Source: Afipia sp. 1NLS2
Lineage (GTDB): Bacteria; Pseudomonadota; Alphaproteobacteria; Rhizobiales; Xanthobacteraceae
Length of the DNA stretch: 64,000 bases
Direction: 5' to 3'
NCBI RefSeq assembly: GCF_000178995.1
Contig: NZ_ADVZ01000003.1
Coordinates: forward strand, 496,001-560,000
Below are positions 20,029 to 38,283 of this stretch, in pieces. The notes below the pieces were generated by a model. That model was given only the letters and a program-made list of their open reading frames with translations. It ran no database searches and was not told where the DNA came from. Both the position numbers and the translations under genes were made by a program. Position 1 is the stretch's first letter. Each line of letters starts with the position of its first letter.

Positions 20029-20225
20029 TTTATTGTGGTGTACGCGCGGTATTATCTCGACGGTCTGGATTTCTAATCGTCTTAGACTTTATTGAATCCG
20101 CCGAACCTCGTTGAGGGCCTGTTTAAGAAGTTCAGCGCCGAATGGCAGATATGCAAACTGAGATGCTTGCTAAACTCTCTCAGCTCTTCATTCTGCGAGT
20201 TGGATTGTCAACTTGAGGTAACAAG

Positions 20226-21440
20226 ATGGTTCGGCTGACAGATCTGCCAGAAGGGCAAGCCAAACGCCTCGCCGAACTGGAATGCCCTGATTTTCAGACC
20301 AGCCCGTGGGTGAGTGGCCCACCGCTTGCTGAACGGCGCGTGGCGGTCATCTCGTCCGCTGGGCTTTTTGTGCAAGGCGAAGCCGCTCCGTTTCGCGGTC
20401 GCGATGCCGATTATCGGGCGATCCCTAGGGAGGTTTTGCCAAAAGACGTTCTATGCAGTCATATCTCTATTAACTTCGACCGTACTGCGTTTCAGGAAGA
20501 CTGGAACGTAATTCTTCCTCTTGATCGGCTTAAAGAGCTCGCGGAGGAGGGGACGATCGGTTCGGTCGCTGAAATGCATTACTCGTTTATGGGGGCGATT
20601 GATCCCACCGAAGCGGAAGGTTATGTCCGCGAACTGGCGGTGAGATTGAAGCAGGACAAGGTCGACGCGGTTTTGCTCTGTCCTGTCTGACCCATCTGCT
20701 CGCGCGCCGTGAGCGCGCTGGCTCACTATCTGGAAGAAGAGGGCATCGCGACAGTCGCGATCAGCCTCATTCGGCCGCAAACAGAAAAAACCAAGCCACC
20801 ACGAGCGTTGTGGGTGCCGTTCGAGCTCGGCCGTCCCCTCGGACCGCCAAGCAATCCAGCTTTTCAGAAACGCGTGATTCGAACCGCCTTGCGATTGCTT
20901 GAGCGCGAAGAAGGTACCGGCACTATCGATAATTTCCCTGACGATGATCCGCGTAGCGTGCCAGATGCGGCGTGGCGACCGCCGATCACTAGTAGCTTTC
21001 TTTCAGAGGAACCGAACGCCGCACTTGCTCGATGGTTGCGCGAGGAAATCCGACTACTCGCGCAGGCGCATCAGCAATGGAAGGCCAGGCACAATCGCAC
21101 GACGGTTGGATTTGCGAGAGTATCGATCGAAGAGTGCGCCGATTTCGTGGGGGGATGGATGACCGGTGCCGTGACGCCAAGTCCATGGAGCGATCTGTCG
21201 GGGTCGATGATGCTGCGTTTTTGTGTGGACGATCTGAAGGCATATTGCCTGGAGGCTGGTGCGGCTGGCGATGGGCAGCCATCCGGAAAACAGCTCAGAG
21301 AGTGGTTCTGGAACGGCACAGCGACCGGGAGCGCAATCCGGGCTTTGAGAAAGGTCCTGCAGGCAAGTGACGATGAGCGATTGAGCCGTATCGTCAGCAC
21401 CTTTCTGGTACCTGCCGCACAAATCAGACCGGGTGAATGA
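20226..21440 (+). CDS. GrdB/PrdB-like selenoprotein with in-frame TGA (probable selenocysteine)
   Basis: Two adjacent frames (20226-20687 and onward to 21440) lie in the same reading frame, separated only by TGA 20688-20690. Read through, they give a 404-residue protein of the glycine/betaine/sarcosine/D-proline reductase selenoprotein B family. The stop falls at residue 155 inside CPV-U-PIC, exactly where the family has its Sec motif; downstream SRAVSALAHYLEEEGIATVA continues the family without a gap. A hairpin with a GU-containing loop follows the TGA. A GAGGT ribosome site precedes ATG 20226. Sec-insertion genes (selA, selB, tRNA-Sec) are not in the window and must exist elsewhere. Confidence 0.82.
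20691..20725 (+). other. Bacterial SECIS-like hairpin
   Basis: Directly after the TGA, GCGCGC 20702-20707 pairs with GCGCGC 20713-20718 around the loop CGTGA. The apical G-U lies 19-20 nt after the TGA, close to its position in the E. coli fdhF SECIS. Lower pairs (C20699-G20721, G20698-C20722) extend the stem past a mismatch. Confidence 0.6.
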
Positions 21441-29498: not shown

Positions 29499-30569
29499 AT
29501 GGCTCACTACAACATCCTGATCCTCGGAGCCTCTTACGGCTCGCTGCTGGCCTCGAAACTTCTGTTCGGCGGCCATGACGTGACACTCGTCTGCCTCCCT
29601 GCGGAGGCGGATCTCATCAACAAGGAAGGCTTCCGCGTGCGGATGCCGGTCCGCGGCCGCAAGGACCAGATCGAGATCGATTCCCGCAAGCTGCCCGGCA
29701 AGGTGAAGGCCGCCGGTCCCGCCGACGTGAACCCGAAAGACTACGACCTGATCGGGCTCGCGATGCAGGAGCCGCAATATGGCTCGTCCGGCGTGCGCGA
29801 ACTGCTCGATGCGGTGGCGAAGTCGGGCGTACCGTGCATGTCGATCATGAACATGCCGCCGCTGCCCTACATGCAGCGCATTCCCGGTCTCGATGCTGAC
29901 GCGCTGAAGCCGGCCTACACCGCACCCGAAGTCTGGTCGAATTTCGATCCCGGCAAGCTGACGCTGTGCAGCCCCGATCCGCAGGCGATCCGCCCACCGG
30001 AGGAGAAGGTCAACGTCCTGCAAGTGACGCTGCCGACCAACTTTAAGGTCGCGCGCTTCGACGACGAGGCGAGCAACGAAATCCTCCGTAATCTGGAGCG
30101 GGACATCTTGGCGATACGTTTTGATGCACCGGAGGGCAAGATCGAGCTGCCGGTAAAGCTGCGCTTCCACGATTCGCTGTTCGTGCCGCTCGCGAAATGG
30201 GCGATGCTGATGGCGGGCAATTACCGCTGCATCACGCTGGATGGCATGCGCACCGCGCAGGAGGCGGTTCACTCCAATCTCGAGGAATCGCGCTCGATCT
30301 ACAATTTCGTTGTGGATGTCTGCGTGAAGCTCGGGGCTTCGCGCGACGACATGGTGCCGTTCGAGAAATACGCCGCGGCAGCGGAAAGTCTGTCGCGCCC
30401 GGCCTCTGCCGCGCGCGCGCTCAACAGCGGCGCGCCGAACATCGAACGGGCCGACAAGCTGGTGCAGTTGACGGCCCGCGAGATTGGCATGAGCCACCCC
30501 GTGCTCGACGCCATCGTGGCCCTTGTCGACAAGCGTTTGGAGGCGAATCGCAAGAAGGCCGCGGCTTGA
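29499..30569 (+). CDS. Ketopantoate reductase-like NAD(P)-binding protein
   Basis: 356 residues with an N-terminal Rossmann fold (YNILILGASYGSLLASKLLF) of the ApbA/PanE type and a C-terminal helical domain. The central region deviates from true PanE, and its context with MFS and GST genes suggests a catabolic alcohol or keto-acid dehydrogenase rather than pantothenate synthesis. Composition is clearly more GC-rich than the genes before it (21-29 kb), which may mark a boundary between acquired segments. Confidence 0.75.
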   Translation: MAHYNILILGASYGSLLASKLLFGGHDVTLVCLPAEADLINKEGFRVRMPVRGRKDQIEIDSRKLPGKVKAAGPADVNPKDYDLIGLAMQEPQYGSSGVRELLDAVAKSGVPCMSIMNMPPLPYMQRIPGLDADALKPAYTAPEVWSNFDPGKLTLCSPDPQAIRPPEEKVNVLQVTLPTNFKVARFDDEASNEILRNLERDILAIRFDAPEGKIELPVKLRFHDSLFVPLAKWAMLMAGNYRCITLDGMRTAQEAVHSNLEESRSIYNFVVDVCVKLGASRDDMVPFEKYAAAAESLSRPASAARALNSGAPNIERADKLVQLTAREIGMSHPVLDAIVALVDKRLEANRKKAAA

Positions 30570-30835: not shown

Positions 30836-31759
30836 TTAGCCCGGGCGGGTGGTCGGCGCCGACGTCTTCCGATTATAAGAGAGTTCGAAGAATGTCTGCC
30901 AGACAACCTGCGCGGCCGGTGATAGCGAACGATCCTTTCTTTTGAAGAGCAGGATGTCTCGGCTCGCAGCTGGCCGTGTCAGCGTTCGCGTGATCAGCGC
31001 GGGATGGCTTTTGTAGGGAGCCACCATCTCCGGCATCACGGCGACGCCGAGGCCTGCTTCCACCATTCCCAGCACGGAGCTCGGCTGCGCGAGTTCGAGC
31101 ACGATGTTGGCCTGAATTTGCAGGCGGGCAAGCGTATCGACAATCTGCTGGCGGCTGCCCGAGGTATTGTTGAGCATTACGAGGCGCCGGCCCGCGAGCT
31201 GAGACCATCCTACGGATTTCTTCTTTGCGAATGCATCGTCGCGGCGGCAGACGAGGAGAAATGGATCGCTCATCAATTTATGGATTTCCAGTTCCGATTC
31301 CGAAATAAGGCCGCTGGAAATGCCAAATTCGATCTCGCCCCGCACGGCCTTTTGAACCACTTCTCTGGCGGCCACGTCCTCGATGGCGAATGAGACGTTG
31401 GGCCACTTCGCTGTACAATGCTCGATGCATCTCGGCATCAGGCTGCGGGCGATGGACGGCACGCAGGCCATCGCCACCGTTCCGCGATGCTGGACCCCGA
31501 TATCGCGCAATTCTCGCAGGACCGTATCGAGTTCGTTCAACAGCCTGGCGCCGGTCGCAACCAGGGTTTCGCCAACGGTCGTGAGACGAACGTTGCGTGT
31601 GGTGCGATCCAGCAGTTTGACGCCGAGTTCGGTTTCGACGTGCCGGATCGCGAGGCTGACAGCGCTTTGAGACATGCCAATGTCTTCCGCGGCGCGGCTG
31701 AAGCTGCCGTGCTTGGCAACTGCCAGAAAAACCTTGAGTTGGCGTAATCCGACATTCAT
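30836..31759 (-). CDS. LysR-family transcriptional regulator
   Basis: 307 residues: an N-terminal helix-turn-helix (FSRAAEDIGMSQSAVSLAIR) and a complete LysR effector domain. It is divergent from the GST/MFS/DUF2798/GST operon at 31850-34965 and probably regulates it. The 90-bp spacer contains a 12-bp inverted repeat. Confidence 0.9.
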   Translation of the reverse strand: MNVGLRQLKVFLAVAKHGSFSRAAEDIGMSQSAVSLAIRHVETELGVKLLDRTTRNVRLTTVGETLVATGARLLNELDTVLRELRDIGVQHRGTVAMACVPSIARSLMPRCIEHCTAKWPNVSFAIEDVAAREVVQKAVRGEIEFGISSGLISESELEIHKLMSDPFLLVCRRDDAFAKKKSVGWSQLAGRRLVMLNNTSGSRQQIVDTLARLQIQANIVLELAQPSSVLGMVEAGLGVAVMPEMVAPYKSHPALITRTLTRPAASRDILLFKRKDRSLSPAAQVVWQTFFELSYNRKTSAPTTRPG

Positions 31760-31820
31760 TCGATAAACTCATTAATACATCTGATCTTTCAATTTTACAT
31801 TAAAAAGGCCCAGCCCTTCA

Positions 31821-31853
31821 ATGGCGGTCTCAATAGCAGTGAGACCGCCATGA
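31821..31853 (+). promoter_or_regulatory. 12-bp inverted repeat and leader ORF over the GST start codon
   Basis: ATGGCGGTCTCA (31821-31832) and TGAGACCGCCAT (31840-31851) are perfectly complementary around a 7-nt loop. The GST ATG (31850-31852) lies in the 3' arm. The 5' arm begins with an ATG that opens a 10-codon frame whose TGA (31851-31853) overlaps the GST ATG. This could be a translational switch, or an operator for the divergent LysR protein. Confidence 0.5.
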
Positions 31854-32542
31854 CCGATACTTTGACGCCTGCCAAATCGCCTCAGCCAGTCCGCTCAAAA
31901 TCAACCACGCCGCTCCGCGTCCTAGGAAGGTCCAATTCCTTCAATGTCCGCAAGGTGCTGTGGGTTTGCGATGAGATCGGCATTCCCTTTACGCGAGAGG
32001 ATTACGGGCGCGGGTTTATTCCGACCAATACCCCGGAGTTTCTCCGACTCAATTTGACCGGCCAGGTGCCCGTCATTATCGACGGCGACCGCGTGATGCG
32101 GGAATCCAATACTATCGTCCGCTATCTCGCTGCAAAGCACGGCGCCACTGAGCTTTACCCGGAAGATCCCGCGGGACGGCAGGCGATTGAGGAGTGGATG
32201 GACTGGGTTGCATATGACGTCACGCACGCTCTGCGCGGTGCGTTCCTCGGCGGTCAATTGGGCGAGGCTCCCTACGATCACCCCTGGTACATCGAGCAGG
32301 GTCAGAAAGAACTCGTCTATGTGATGGGATTGCTGGACAAGCATCTCGCCGAGAATGGCCCTTACGTGATGGGCGAGCACTTCACGATCGCGGATATTCC
32401 AGTCGGCCTTGTCGTCAACCGCTGGTTCAACCTCACGCATCCAGGCCTGAAGCGGCCGGATTATCTGGCGGTCGCCGCCTACTATGAATTGATGACGGAG
32501 CGGCCGGCGTTCCGCAAGCACGGACGCAACGGACTTCCGTGA
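31850..32542 (+). CDS. Glutathione S-transferase 1
   Basis: 230 residues: N-terminal thioredoxin-like GST domain (VLGRSNSFNVRKVLWVCDEI, then TGQVPVIIDGDRVMRESNTI with the cis-Pro and glutathione-binding ES pair) and a C-terminal helical domain (FTIADIPVGLVVNRW). An N-terminal tail of about 22 residues precedes the fold. No ribosome site is visible, and the start codon sits in a hairpin. First gene of a catabolic operon with MFS, DUF2798 and a second GST. Confidence 0.86.
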   Translation: MTDTLTPAKSPQPVRSKSTTPLRVLGRSNSFNVRKVLWVCDEIGIPFTREDYGRGFIPTNTPEFLRLNLTGQVPVIIDGDRVMRESNTIVRYLAAKHGATELYPEDPAGRQAIEEWMDWVAYDVTHALRGAFLGGQLGEAPYDHPWYIEQGQKELVYVMGLLDKHLAENGPYVMGEHFTIADIPVGLVVNRWFNLTHPGLKRPDYLAVAAYYELMTERPAFRKHGRNGLP

Positions 32543-32647
32543 CCGGCGTATTCGGCTTCAGTGGCTTGAGAAATGGGAAAGCAGCCGGGTCGTCCGGCTA
32601 TTTCGGAGATGACTTGATAACAAAAAACACAATCGGGGAGAGAGACC

Positions 32648-33964
32648 ATGGCCATTACGCAGGAGGCGGAGGAGGTAACGACTAAGGCTGCGTCGTTCCG
32701 CTTGTCTATCAGTGCGCATACTCTGGTTACGACGCTGCTCTGTGTTCTGTTCGCAATCATGTATCTTGACCGAGTCAACATCTCGGCAGCGGCCGCATCC
32801 ATTAAGGCTCACTTTTCGCTCTCGAACGCGGAGATGGGATTCATCTTCAGCGGTTTCTCCTGGGCCTATCTCGCATCGGTGTTGTTCGGTGGCTGGGGCG
32901 CCCGGAAGTTCGGCGCCAAATCCACCTTGATTGTGTGCGTCGTGGTTGTCGGCATCGGCACGGTTGCAACCGGTCTCGCGGGTGGACTCGTCACCCTTTT
33001 CATTGCCCGCCTTGTTGTCGGGCTGGGCGAAGGGCCGGCGTTTCCAGCGGCGACGCAGGCAATGCGAAACTGGTATCCGCCGAGCCGGTTCGGTTACATT
33101 CAGGGCATCACGCACAGCGCGTCGCGCCTCGGGGCGGCAATCGCGCCACCGATCGTTGCCGCTCTCATTATTTGGGCGGATTGGCGAGTGTCGTTCGTCA
33201 TATGCGGACTGACCGCGCTGGTCTGGTGTGTTTTCTGGTGGTGGACATTCCAGGACGATCCGAGAACCCACCCGCGGGTTGACCCGCGCCGCCTCGAAGG
33301 GATCACCGTCTCATTGCCTAACCGGCGCGCGAATACGCCGCTGTGGATTCTGACAAAGCGGATGTTTCCGGTGACGCTGGTGATGTTCGCTTACGGCTGG
33401 ACATATTGGGTGTTCGTGTCGTGGTTGCCGCTTTATTTCGTCAATCAGCATGGAACAAACCTGAAAAATTCCGCACTTCTGACGAGTGCCTTGTTCTTCG
33501 CGGGGCTGATCGGCAACACCGTGGGCGGTGTGGTATCCGACCGAATTCTACGCAAGACGGGGCGTAACCGGCTGGCGCGATGCAGCGTAATTGCAGTGTC
33601 GCTACTCGGAGCGGCTGCCTTCATCACACCGACCATGTTCATCAATGATCTGCACTATGTGGTACCGCTGCTTGCTGCTGCGATGTTCTTCCTGGAGATG
33701 ACCATCGCGCCGATGTACGCCATTCCGATGGACATATCGAAGGACTATGCCGGCCTGGGAAGCGCTTACGTCATCATGGGTGTCGGCATATCGGGAGTGG
33801 TATCACCCGTTGTCTTCGGTTGGCTGATCGATCTGACCGGCAATTGGAACATCCCCTTTGCCTCGGGTATCGCGATCTTGCTCGCGGGAGCACTGGCCGT
33901 TGTGCTCTTAAGGCCTGACGTGCCTCTCGTCATTCCGCAGTCGGCCGGAAACGCGCGGGCGTGA
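32648..33964 (+). CDS. MFS transporter, ACS family, copy 3
   Basis: 438 residues with twelve membrane helices. The ACS marks MYLDRVNISAA and GLGEGPAFPAATQAMRNW are present, and it is a paralogue of the carriers at 24449 and 28142. It lies 105 bp after GST 1 and 6 bp before DUF2798 copy 2, in one operon. Organic-anion uptake linked to glutathione-dependent breakdown is the inference. Confidence 0.88.
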   Translation: MAITQEAEEVTTKAASFRLSISAHTLVTTLLCVLFAIMYLDRVNISAAAASIKAHFSLSNAEMGFIFSGFSWAYLASVLFGGWGARKFGAKSTLIVCVVVVGIGTVATGLAGGLVTLFIARLVVGLGEGPAFPAATQAMRNWYPPSRFGYIQGITHSASRLGAAIAPPIVAALIIWADWRVSFVICGLTALVWCVFWWWTFQDDPRTHPRVDPRRLEGITVSLPNRRANTPLWILTKRMFPVTLVMFAYGWTYWVFVSWLPLYFVNQHGTNLKNSALLTSALFFAGLIGNTVGGVVSDRILRKTGRNRLARCSVIAVSLLGAAAFITPTMFINDLHYVVPLLAAAMFFLEMTIAPMYAIPMDISKDYAGLGSAYVIMGVGISGVVSPVVFGWLIDLTGNWNIPFASGIAILLAGALAVVLLRPDVPLVIPQSAGNARA

Positions 33965-33970
33965 AGTCAC

Positions 33971-34219
33971 ATGGGTGACATAACGGCAATGCTGATACCT
34001 CGCCGATATAGCCATTTTGTCTATGGTGCTATCCAGTCGGGTGTCACCACCGGCATTGCCACGGCTGTGGCGACAAGTGGCTATGAGTACGGGGGTATGT
34101 TTCTGCATCGCTGGACCACGACGTGGTTCACGTCATGGCTACTGATGATGCCGGTGGTGCTGTTTGTCGCTCCGGCAATTCAGCGCCTTACCGTCCTTCT
34201 GACACGCGACAGGGCATGA
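33971..34219 (+). CDS. DUF2798 small membrane protein, copy 2
   Basis: 82 residues with two membrane helices (FVYGAIQSGVTTGIATAVAT and TTWFTSWLLMMPVVLFVAP). Closely similar to the copy at 30578-30805. It begins 6 bp after the MFS stop. Confidence 0.78.
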   Translation: MGDITAMLIPRRYSHFVYGAIQSGVTTGIATAVATSGYEYGGMFLHRWTTTWFTSWLLMMPVVLFVAPAIQRLTVLLTRDRA

Positions 34220-34269
34220 CTCTGTCTGCATCATTGAATGCATGAAAAAGCCTAAAGGAGAAGAAGCGC

Positions 34270-34965
34270 GTGATTGATCTTTACTACTGGACCACCCCAA
34301 ATGGGCACAAGATCACGCTCTGTTTGGAGGAGATGGGTCTGCCTTATCAGGTGCACCGGGTCGAGCTTGGCAAGGGAGAGCAATTCCGCGACGAATTTCT
34401 GGCGATCTCGCCGAACAACAAAATCCCCGCCATCGTGGACAGGCACCCCGTTGACGGTGGGAATCCTATTCCAGTGTTCGAGTCGGGCGCGATTTTGATT
34501 TATCTCGCTGAAAAGACCGGAACGTTCCTGCCGACAGAGGTGCGGAAACGGTTCGATGTTATCCAGTGGCTGATGTGGCAGATGGGAGGGCTCGGGCCGA
34601 TGGCGGGCCAGAACCATCACTTTGCGGGCTATACCGTTGAAAAAATCCAGTATGCGATCGACCGCTACGTGAACGAGACCAATCGTCTCTATGGTGTCCT
34701 GAATCATCGGCTGGCCGATCGCGAATACGTCTGTGGCGATTACTCGATTGCCGACATGGCGATCTATCCCTGGATCGTGCCATATGAGCGTCAGAGCCAG
34801 AAGATCGAGGATTTTCTGCATCTGAAACGCTGGTTCGAAACGATCAGGAGCAGGCCGGCGACGATCCGCGCTTATGCTGTCGCCAAAACGGTCAATCCGA
34901 CGAATGCACCGACCGTGAATGAAGAATCCAGGAAGATATTGTTTGGGCAGGTGGCACGCAGATAA
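34270..34965 (+). CDS. Glutathione S-transferase 2 (YfcG/YghU-like)
   Basis: GTG 34270 follows AAGGAG at 9 nt. 231 residues. The N-terminal domain reads YYWTTPNGHKITLCLEEMGL, with SPNNKIPAIVD and ESGAILIYLAEKTG; the TPNGHK form is characteristic of nu-class disulfide-bond oxidoreductase GSTs. The C-terminal domain has DYSIADMAIYPW. Last gene of the operon starting at 31850. Confidence 0.88.
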   Translation: MIDLYYWTTPNGHKITLCLEEMGLPYQVHRVELGKGEQFRDEFLAISPNNKIPAIVDRHPVDGGNPIPVFESGAILIYLAEKTGTFLPTEVRKRFDVIQWLMWQMGGLGPMAGQNHHFAGYTVEKIQYAIDRYVNETNRLYGVLNHRLADREYVCGDYSIADMAIYPWIVPYERQSQKIEDFLHLKRWFETIRSRPATIRAYAVAKTVNPTNAPTVNEESRKILFGQVARR

Positions 34966-37428: not shown

Positions 37429-38283
37429 ATGGCCAAAATCGCATATCGCACCGCTGATGTGGACGGTTTCAAAGTTTTCTATCGCGAGGCCGGTGCGCCG
37501 GATGCGCCGAAGCTGCTCTTGCTTCACGGTTTCCCGAGTGCAGGTCACATGTTTCGCGATCTGATTCCGCTCCTCGCCGATCGTTTCCACATCGTCGCAC
37601 CTGACCTGCTGGGTTTCGGTCAGTCCGACATGCCGGCGCGCGATAAATTCACCTACACGTTCGATAACATCGCCAACGTCATCGAGCGCTTCACCGAAAT
37701 TATCGGCTTCAATCGCTTCGCGGTTTACGTGTTCGATTACGGCGCGCCGACGGGTTTACGCCTTGCTGTCCGGCATCCCGAGCGGATCACGGCGATCATT
37801 TCGCAAAATGGCAACGCCTACGAAGAGGGACTGAGCGAAGGCTGGAATCCGATCCAGTCGTACTGGAAAGATCCTTCGCAGGCCAACCGCGATGCTCTCC
37901 GTGCATTTCTCAAGCCCGAAGCCACACGCTGGCAATATACCCACGGCGTGCCCGATGAGGCCGCCGTCTCGCCGGACGGACAGAACCTCGATAATTTTTA
38001 CCTGGCCCGTGCGGGTGCGGACGAGATTCAGCTCGATCTGTTCGGAGACTACAAGAGCAACGTCGCGCTCTATCCGGTGTTTCAGAATTACTTCCGCACC
38101 CACAAGCCGCCTTTGCTTGCGGTGTGGGGAAAGAACGATCCCTTCTTTCTTCCGCCGGGTGCGGAAGCGTTCACGCGCGACAATCCCAATGCCATCGTCC
38201 GCTTCATCGATACGGGCCATTTCGCGCTTGAAACGCATGCCGGCGAAATCGCGTCGAGCATTCGCGCATTCTTGAGCCACTGA
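37429..38283 (+). CDS. Alpha/beta hydrolase, haloalkane dehalogenase/epoxide hydrolase type
   Basis: 284 residues. The oxyanion motif is HGFPSAGHMF, the nucleophile elbow VFDYGAPTG has aspartate instead of serine, and the catalytic His is in DTGHFALETH. Asp nucleophiles are typical of haloalkane dehalogenases, fluoroacetate dehalogenases and epoxide hydrolases; the elbow VxDYGxPxG is common in uncharacterised members. A ribosome site (ATAGGAG) precedes ATG 37429. Confidence 0.85.
   Translation: MAKIAYRTADVDGFKVFYREAGAPDAPKLLLLHGFPSAGHMFRDLIPLLADRFHIVAPDLLGFGQSDMPARDKFTYTFDNIANVIERFTEIIGFNRFAVYVFDYGAPTGLRLAVRHPERITAIISQNGNAYEEGLSEGWNPIQSYWKDPSQANRDALRAFLKPEATRWQYTHGVPDEAAVSPDGQNLDNFYLARAGADEIQLDLFGDYKSNVALYPVFQNYFRTHKPPLLAVWGKNDPFFLPPGAEAFTRDNPNAIVRFIDTGHFALETHAGEIASSIRAFLSH

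Follow-up and report, generated by a model that had tools for sequence, protein, structure and literature searches.

Enzymes homologous to the protein presented here use selenocysteine (Sec) and thiols to remove the substituent on the carbon adjacent to a carboxylate, and several described systems come close to its locus. The Global Ocean Sampling survey, for example, recovered PrdB-type selenoproteins from surface waters, with 235 Sec sequences carrying a UxxC motif (PMC2398784). FarB, a GrdB-like selenoprotein of Synergistota, has been proposed to carry out the reductive defluorination of fluoroacetate (PMC10838667). With respect to Sec decoding, the general assumption is that a genome has one functional tRNA-Sec gene; Table 3 of the same source lists eight bacteria that have two tRNA-Sec genes with compensatory changes between the copies, none of them alphaproteobacterial, and 46 more genomes of all kinds carry undisrupted extra copies (PMC5330540). 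In Rhizobiales, the fdo-selABCD cluster has selC nested in selB (PMC8124441), and certain Syntrophobacterales and Desulfobacterales carry a second selB (selB*) together with a selC* tRNA-Cys (PMC7609411).

The locus described here lies in a 64,000-nucleotide stretch of the genome of Afipia sp. 1NLS2, hereafter the window, at positions 20226..21440 of the plus strand. Like PrdB (TIGR04483), to which it is homologous over residues 33-238, its product has a UxxC motif, but it has an extra helical part of about 160 residues. Likewise, it shares Sec in UxxC with GrdB, GrdF and GrdH of glycine, sarcosine and betaine reductase (PF07355), although it matches the last third of the Pfam model only. The marine “PrdB” selenoproteins are similar in their PF07355 membership and UxxC motif and come from surface waters, whereas the excerpted text of that survey holds no mention that we found of a gene cluster, a mobile element or a second Sec system (PMC2398784). 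FarB is likewise a GrdB-like selenoprotein proposed to cut a carbon-halogen bond, but it belongs to an anaerobe and has a partner that resembles GrdE, namely FarE, as well as a radical SAM gene, in contrast to the glutaredoxin (Grx), thioredoxin reductase (TrxR) and hydrolytic dehalogenases found here (PMC10838667). One of the two sel sets of this genome (set A) resembles the Rhizobiales fdo-selABCD cluster in having a Sec formate dehydrogenase and selC inside the selB open reading frame (ORF), while the other (set B) has selC beside selB, and its SelB and SelA are of separate lineages (PMC8124441). Finally, a second selB in one genome has already been published, but selB* is thought to serve tRNA-Cys, whereas the second set described here is a full selABCD with tRNA-Sec(UCA) (PMC7609411).

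The reading frame and its in-frame TGA

Two ORFs in the same frame, 20226-20690 and 20709-21440, are separated by one TGA (20688..20690, plus strand), which is codon 155 and would be read as Sec within CPVUPIC. Readthrough from the ATG at 20226 gives 404 residues with that TGA as the sole interruption and a TGA stop at 21438-21440, much as the initial annotation had it when it proposed one gene made of two in-register frames around a single TGA in CPV-TGA-PIC. The accompanying prediction that an automatic caller would split the gene was also correct, since translation table 11 gives two ORFs of 154 and 243 aa. A ribosome-binding-like motif, GAGG (20215..20218, plus strand), can be read from the sequence 7 nt before the ATG. 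A PADLOC search returned no match.

The same genome carries two TGA paralogues, 80% and 39% identical to the window copy, and each of the three copies has one TGA and no other stop. The window gene sits on contig C8, i.e., outside the integrative conjugative element (ICE) on contig C10 that is described below. Relative to the 80% paralogue, dN/dS is 0.067 before the TGA and 0.104 after it, with dS at 1.5 and 1.3, respectively, and changes after the TGA number 35, 29 and 120 at codon positions 1, 2 and 3 (third positions, 120 of 184). Purifying selection acts on the gene both before and after the TGA.

Sec or Cys in relatives

Named genomes were scanned with an alignment of the three own copies and with patterns that omit the TGA/Sec column. 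In all 69 of the relatives recovered, the aligned codon is TGA; by record titles, these loci span the Alpha-, Beta- and Gammaproteobacteria, Desulfobacterota, Chloroflexota, Actinomycetota and others, and some of them are cut by contig ends. The aligned stretch has one TGA in 68 of the 69, and the remaining locus (L099) has a second TGA, so that further stops, which the initial annotation had treated as a warning sign, are rare (1/69). Within a sample of 296 genomes of the same bacterial family, 102 match and five have the TGA form, namely the own genome (G000), a genome of the same genus (G255), G278, G059 and G004. Nearly all of the other family matches listed are shorter (about residues 32-256) and have no stop; for two rows of the sample, G015 and G242, the alignment runs across stops. 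In these shorter relatives the column is Cys in all 25 loci examined, G015 included, which are those returned as a locus from the 102 matching genomes, and in further long-form loci it is TGA in four of four. The in-frame TGA thus aligns with Cys in homologues, and every reading of the column gave either Sec or Cys (69 and 25 loci, respectively), as had been anticipated. selA scores over its cut-off in all five TGA-form genomes, versus 109 of the 296 genomes overall. A plasmid search with P0001 returned 25 records, all below 60% identity and none spanning 80% of the query.

A pseudogene, in which the TGA would be a true stop and the downstream half dead, might be suspected from the split that a gene caller would make and from the 80% identical paralogue that could do the job elsewhere, but this is extremely improbable in view of the strong constraint past the TGA (dN/dS 0.104; third positions, 120 of 184 changes), the single TGA with no other stop in the three own copies and the single TGA in 68 of 69 relatives.

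The SECIS hairpin

A SECIS hairpin of 6 bp with the 5-nt loop CGUGA follows the TGA (20702..20718, plus strand). Its apical GU is at nt 22-23, counting the T of the TGA as 1, i.e., 19-20 nt past the TGA; the initial annotation placed it correctly, but the likeness it saw to the geometry of fdhF is only approximate. A gap-free alignment of the 39 nt that start at the TGA comprises 72 sequences, 57 of them distinct. Counts of SECIS positions and residues use all fetched rows (72/72), and the covariation test counts identical rows once. Among the 57 distinct sequences, the 6-bp stem is paired in 95.0% of cells, with both-side changes at five of the six pairs. The covariation score is 0.728, as compared with 0.262 +/- 0.024 in shuffles (0/500 reach 0.728) and at most 0.086 in slid-partner controls; the pair-type count does not exceed that of the shuffles (12 vs 13.1). 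The folding energy of the window hairpin alone is unexceptional (z -1.22, with 26/200 shuffles folding as well), and single-sequence folding is also ordinary for L071 (z -0.72) and L033 (z 0.02), the L025 slice being too short for such a judgement. When the first 10 nt are included, an alternative register is more stable in the window copy (-16.0 vs -11.7 kcal/mol). It is therefore covariation, not folding energy, that places this hairpin, right after the TGA, beyond chance, and the invariant GU carries no proof because the conserved Val codon forces it.

The PrdB-like family has GU at nt 22-23 in 72/72 sequences, and nt 17 is paired in 50 of the 57 distinct ones. In the two Sec formate dehydrogenase genes of the same genome, the GU is found at nt 23-24 and nt 17 is U. 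Relative to the SECIS of the host formate dehydrogenases, then, that of the PrdB-like genes has its GU shifted by one position and is without the U at nt 17.

Taken as a whole, positions 20226 to 21440 of the window form a single gene whose TGA155 is almost certainly read as Sec via the SECIS hairpin. The initial annotation had called it a probable selenoprotein, and that call is strengthened by TGA in 69/69 relatives, Cys in 25/25 short ones, the covarying hairpin, dN/dS values of 0.07 and 0.10 and the presence of Sec machinery in the genome.

Protein family and structure

The best NCBIfam match is PrdB (TIGR04483; E-value 2.5e-30), but its score of 105.7 bits falls short of the cut-off of 300. 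Pfam GRDB (PF07355) is matched at 8.5e-12, its score of 45.4 exceeding the gathering value of 22, over model positions 223-345 of 347. TIGR01918, the glycine/betaine/sarcosine/D-proline selenoprotein B subfamily, scores 58.2 bits, below its 65.45. The GrdB/PrdB likeness first proposed thus stands (PrdB, GRDB), but the protein is not a PrdB proper: it scores below the cut-off for a true D-proline reductase and belongs to a longer form, in which a helical domain is added at the C-terminus. The family alignment (A3) comprises 38 of the 39 listed full-length loci and the three own copies, with L056 left out.

An AlphaFold2 model (pLDDT 87.2, pTM 0.88) predicts an N-terminal Rossmann-like domain with the UxxC motif (residues 32-243; 20319..20954, plus strand) and a C-terminal helical part (residues 264-394; 21015..21407, plus strand) that matches no Pfam family at E up to 1. 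Solved structures searched by sequence with a 3-sequence alignment gave 0 matches at E up to 1, and Foldseek gave none at E <= 0.001. A second look with VIA reached a Z of at most 8.4, for the Rossmann-like half, which is a common arrangement that offers no functional lead. Neither the PrdA/GrdE-type pyruvoyl partner (PF09338) nor the GrdA partner (PF04723) was found in five genomes (0/5 for each), and no control genome matched either model. An anaerobic, Stickland-type role was set aside, for which the absence of these partners from the matches of the five genomes, with silent controls, is only a hint.

Two sets of Sec machinery

The Sec machinery on which the selenoprotein call depends is present, with tRNA-Sec(UCA), selA, selB and selD all in the same genome. 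Two tRNA-Sec(UCA) genes, two selA, two selD and three selB were found over cut-off, and these make up two complete selABCD sets plus a third SelB. Set A is located at C10:290-296 kb beside a Sec formate dehydrogenase, with its selC nested in the selB ORF (C10:291971-294205). Set B is located at C10:1285.9-1290.4 kb, with selC beside selB; the two TGA paralogues lie about 7 and 11 kb away.

In the SelA tree, from which one row in the wrong frame (G001) is disregarded, the set-B SelA and its G255 counterpart form a branch of their own (support 99/82), outside the ten-row group that contains set A (82/99). The set-B SelA is thus not a recent copy of that of set A. In the SelB tree, the cluster-linked SelB proteins form a clade (99/100) apart from set A and from the selA-linked loci, and the third SelB (SelB3) has a very long branch. 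SelB-A and SelB-B of this genome share 61% identity in the first 360 residues (the GTPase half) and 44% in the rest; the C-terminal, SECIS-binding half is the more diverged. Each of the four genomes with a long-form paralogue has at least two SelB over cut-off. The fifth, G004, which has a P0001-type gene only, has one SelB over cut-off; a private SelB is therefore not a general need.

An integrative conjugative element

Set B lies in a block of contig C10 that is nearly identical to a counterpart in G255. Specifically, C10:1233218-1408889 matches over 148,598 bp at 99.908% identity and 27,092 bp at 99.970%, and G255 carries about 7.9 kb extra inside the element, between the two matching stretches. 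The flanks of the element are 84-87% identical between the two genomes and further backbone samples 85-88%, where three of the eight sampled pairs (L153/L154, L155/L156 and L165/L166) do not align, synteny with G255 being lost, and a fourth is not at matching places. A tRNA-Arg(CCG) is found about 1 kb inside the left end of the block, and an exact 22-bp repeat of the end of this tRNA at its right, where a tyrosine integrase (Pfam) adjoins the repeat. Genes for conjugation inside the block include TrbI, CagX, a T4SS-DNA_transf coupling protein, a T2SSE ATPase and a TraG P-loop protein. With att repeats at a tRNA, an integrase, T4SS and coupling genes and a near-identical copy in a diverged host backbone, we read C10:1234314-1408853 as an ICE of about 175 kb that is shared with another species. 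It holds the two TGA paralogues together with the second selABCD set. Cytochrome c, heme synthesis and mercuric-reductase-like genes were also noted by eye within the ICE. Homologous exchange between chromosomes, which the heme and cytochrome genes might suggest, was rejected; the att repeats, integrase and conjugation genes argue for an ICE.

Gene clusters around the selenoprotein genes

On the ICE, genes for a glutaredoxin-like protein, a HAD type II dehalogenase, thioredoxin reductase and an SSS symporter come after the 39% paralogue; the symporter has a DUF485-like partner (named by eye), and selA and selB follow after about 2 kb. The order regulator, selenoprotein, Grx, HAD type II, TrxR, SSS, SelB recurs on the ICE, in L071 and in L074, at 59-95% protein identity; judging by identical matches, L071 would be G059 and L074 would be G278. 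DehI, HAD type II, Grx, TrxR and SSF all score over their cut-offs in the cluster region, and the SSS symporter has monocarboxylate and acetate symporters as its best NCBIfam matches, under their cut-offs. The HAD cluster was found in four of 53 sources, namely two own ICE stretches, L071 and L074; these sources comprise five own and 48 others, many with short flanks, and clusters are listed only if present in at least four. DehI at E <= 0.001 is found in seven of the 296 family genomes, i.e., in four of the five TGA-form genomes versus three of 291 others, the four not being independent since the element is common to G000 and G255. With the gathering score as threshold, DehI is found in 5/296 (3/5 versus 2/291). 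G004, which has the P0001-type gene only, has no DehI. The DehI gene comes directly after SelB in L071, is 17 kb from the ICE selenoprotein and is on another contig in G278. Dehalogenase genes adjoin the long-form paralogue only.

In the window, a gene for a P0006-like protein (29499..30569, plus strand) is a paralogue of genes beside the ICE selenoproteins, with 86% aa identity and 88% nt identity to C10:1273778-1275082. It is followed by a LysR gene on the minus strand and by GST, MFS transporter and GST genes on the plus strand, all named by eye (30836..34965). This stretch is 74-76% identical in nt to C10:1268135-1273635 and appears to be a diverged second copy of the ICE block. The window selenoprotein gene is 8 kb from the P0006-like/LysR/GST/MFS block. 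On the ICE and in L071, P0006 adjoins the regulator.

The P0006 family is itself of some note. Its members are 357-aa, ketopantoate-reductase-like proteins, with copies at window 29499-30569, L027:15397-16470, L031:7999-9069 and L071:7798-8850, and neither Pfam nor NCBIfam gives a match at E <= 0.001. The regions read of the own genome contain three full copies and a fragment, tied to selenoprotein clusters; the fragment, a broken copy beside the 80% paralogue (L027:18371-18955), is 93-96% identical in nt to the end of the other copies. Plasmid relatives are annotated as ketopantoate reductase or hypothetical, and the three that were examined, out of four, are among oxalate and one-carbon genes, not dehalogenases. 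Elsewhere in the window, positions 37429-38283 encode an alpha/beta hydrolase whose haloalkane-dehalogenase-like matches are all under cut-off.

Proposed role

The role of the window protein is partly answered by the neighbourhood of its paralogues. We lean towards a PrdB/GrdB-type, thiol-dependent reductase that works by reductive cleavage. In such an enzyme, the Sec-x-x-Cys pair would attack the carbon next to a carboxylate (or its substituent) and split off the substituent, and the oxidized enzyme would be re-reduced by the glutaredoxin-like protein and thioredoxin reductase; the substrate would be a short substituted carboxylic acid. Given the Grx, the TrxR, the monocarboxylate/acetate-like symporter and the two hydrolytic dehalogenase families, the favoured reading is a reductive step in the degradation of short acids that carry a substituent, possibly a halogen. 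The cluster paralogue has a haloacid as its leading, though tentative, candidate substrate. The link to haloacids is weaker for the window copy, since the P0006-like/GST/MFS block is all that its own surroundings offer.

Two other roles deserve consideration. The substrate could be a non-halogenated C2/C1 metabolite, for instance an acid related to oxalate or glyoxylate. Oxalyl-CoA decarboxylase, formyl-CoA transferase and serine hydroxymethyltransferase genes do lie beside the plasmid relatives of P0006, a BhcA-like aspartate-glyoxylate aminotransferase is encoded on the ICE (under its cut-off) and the genome has Sec formate dehydrogenases, but with HAD type II and DehI present in the region such a substrate seems unlikely. 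Chloroacetate hydrolysis yields C2 acids, and the haloacid and C2/C1 explanations may both hold. Alternatively, the protein could be a selenoprotein that serves as an antioxidant or general disulfide reductase and does not act on substituted acids. This is in keeping with the Grx and TrxR neighbours of the long-form cluster and with the many marine selenoproteins that are Prx-, Trx- and Grx-like in the excerpted survey (PMC2398784). It is rather improbable, however, since the homologous families cleave alpha-substituted carboxylates, as noted at the outset and in the excerpt of PMC13188914, and since two dehalogenase families are also encoded in the cluster region, as is an SSS symporter that is nearest to monocarboxylate/acetate symporters (under cut-offs).

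If reductive cleavage is the activity, the surface-water family, for which no assigned function was found in the partly available literature, gains a testable role in the reductive cleavage of substituted, perhaps halogenated, acids. It is also tempting to suggest, as a speculation that we regard as doubtful, that the Sec-decoding systems of this genome are separate and share no clients, and that a conjugative package gives an aerobe a selenium-dependent reductive step on haloacids. The PrdB-like selenoproteins would then travel with their own SelB lineage, which would read an apical GU at nt 22-23 and a paired nt 17, while the host formate dehydrogenases would depend on SelB from other lineages and on a SECIS whose GU is at nt 23-24 and whose nt 17 is U. 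The package would consist of selABCD, the selenoprotein, Grx, TrxR, the dehalogenases and the symporter, and would move by conjugation. A literature search with little coverage of subscription journals found no report of an ICE that carries a second complete Sec set and its own selenoproteins, nor, within the same coverage, of a SelB clade linked to a single selenoprotein cluster. The presence of such a set on a conjugative element, beside its own selenoproteins, makes SelB/SECIS orthogonality testable in nature, and an ICE-borne set offers a route by which Sec use could spread as a self-contained unit.

Additional Sec loci

The third, very diverged SelB is encoded at G000:C6:211783-213715 (L003, L210), beside a tRNA-Sec-like gene with the anticodon UCG that scores 54.8 bits against Rfam RF01852 (threshold 47). 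The possibility that UCG marks a new Sec codon was considered and rejected: UCA is the anticodon of the G255 orthologue, additional mismatches are seen in the own copy and the adjacent formate dehydrogenase keeps its TGA. For this tRNA-Sec-like copy, decay seems likelier than a new Sec codon. That formate dehydrogenase, the second with Sec (NRTUHAPSV), lies in the gene block of the third SelB (G000:C6, L209 from 12167), and the genome therefore has at least five TGA selenoprotein genes. Finally, G255:C1 carries three full selA and three selB over cut-off, i.e., three Sec loci in one genome.
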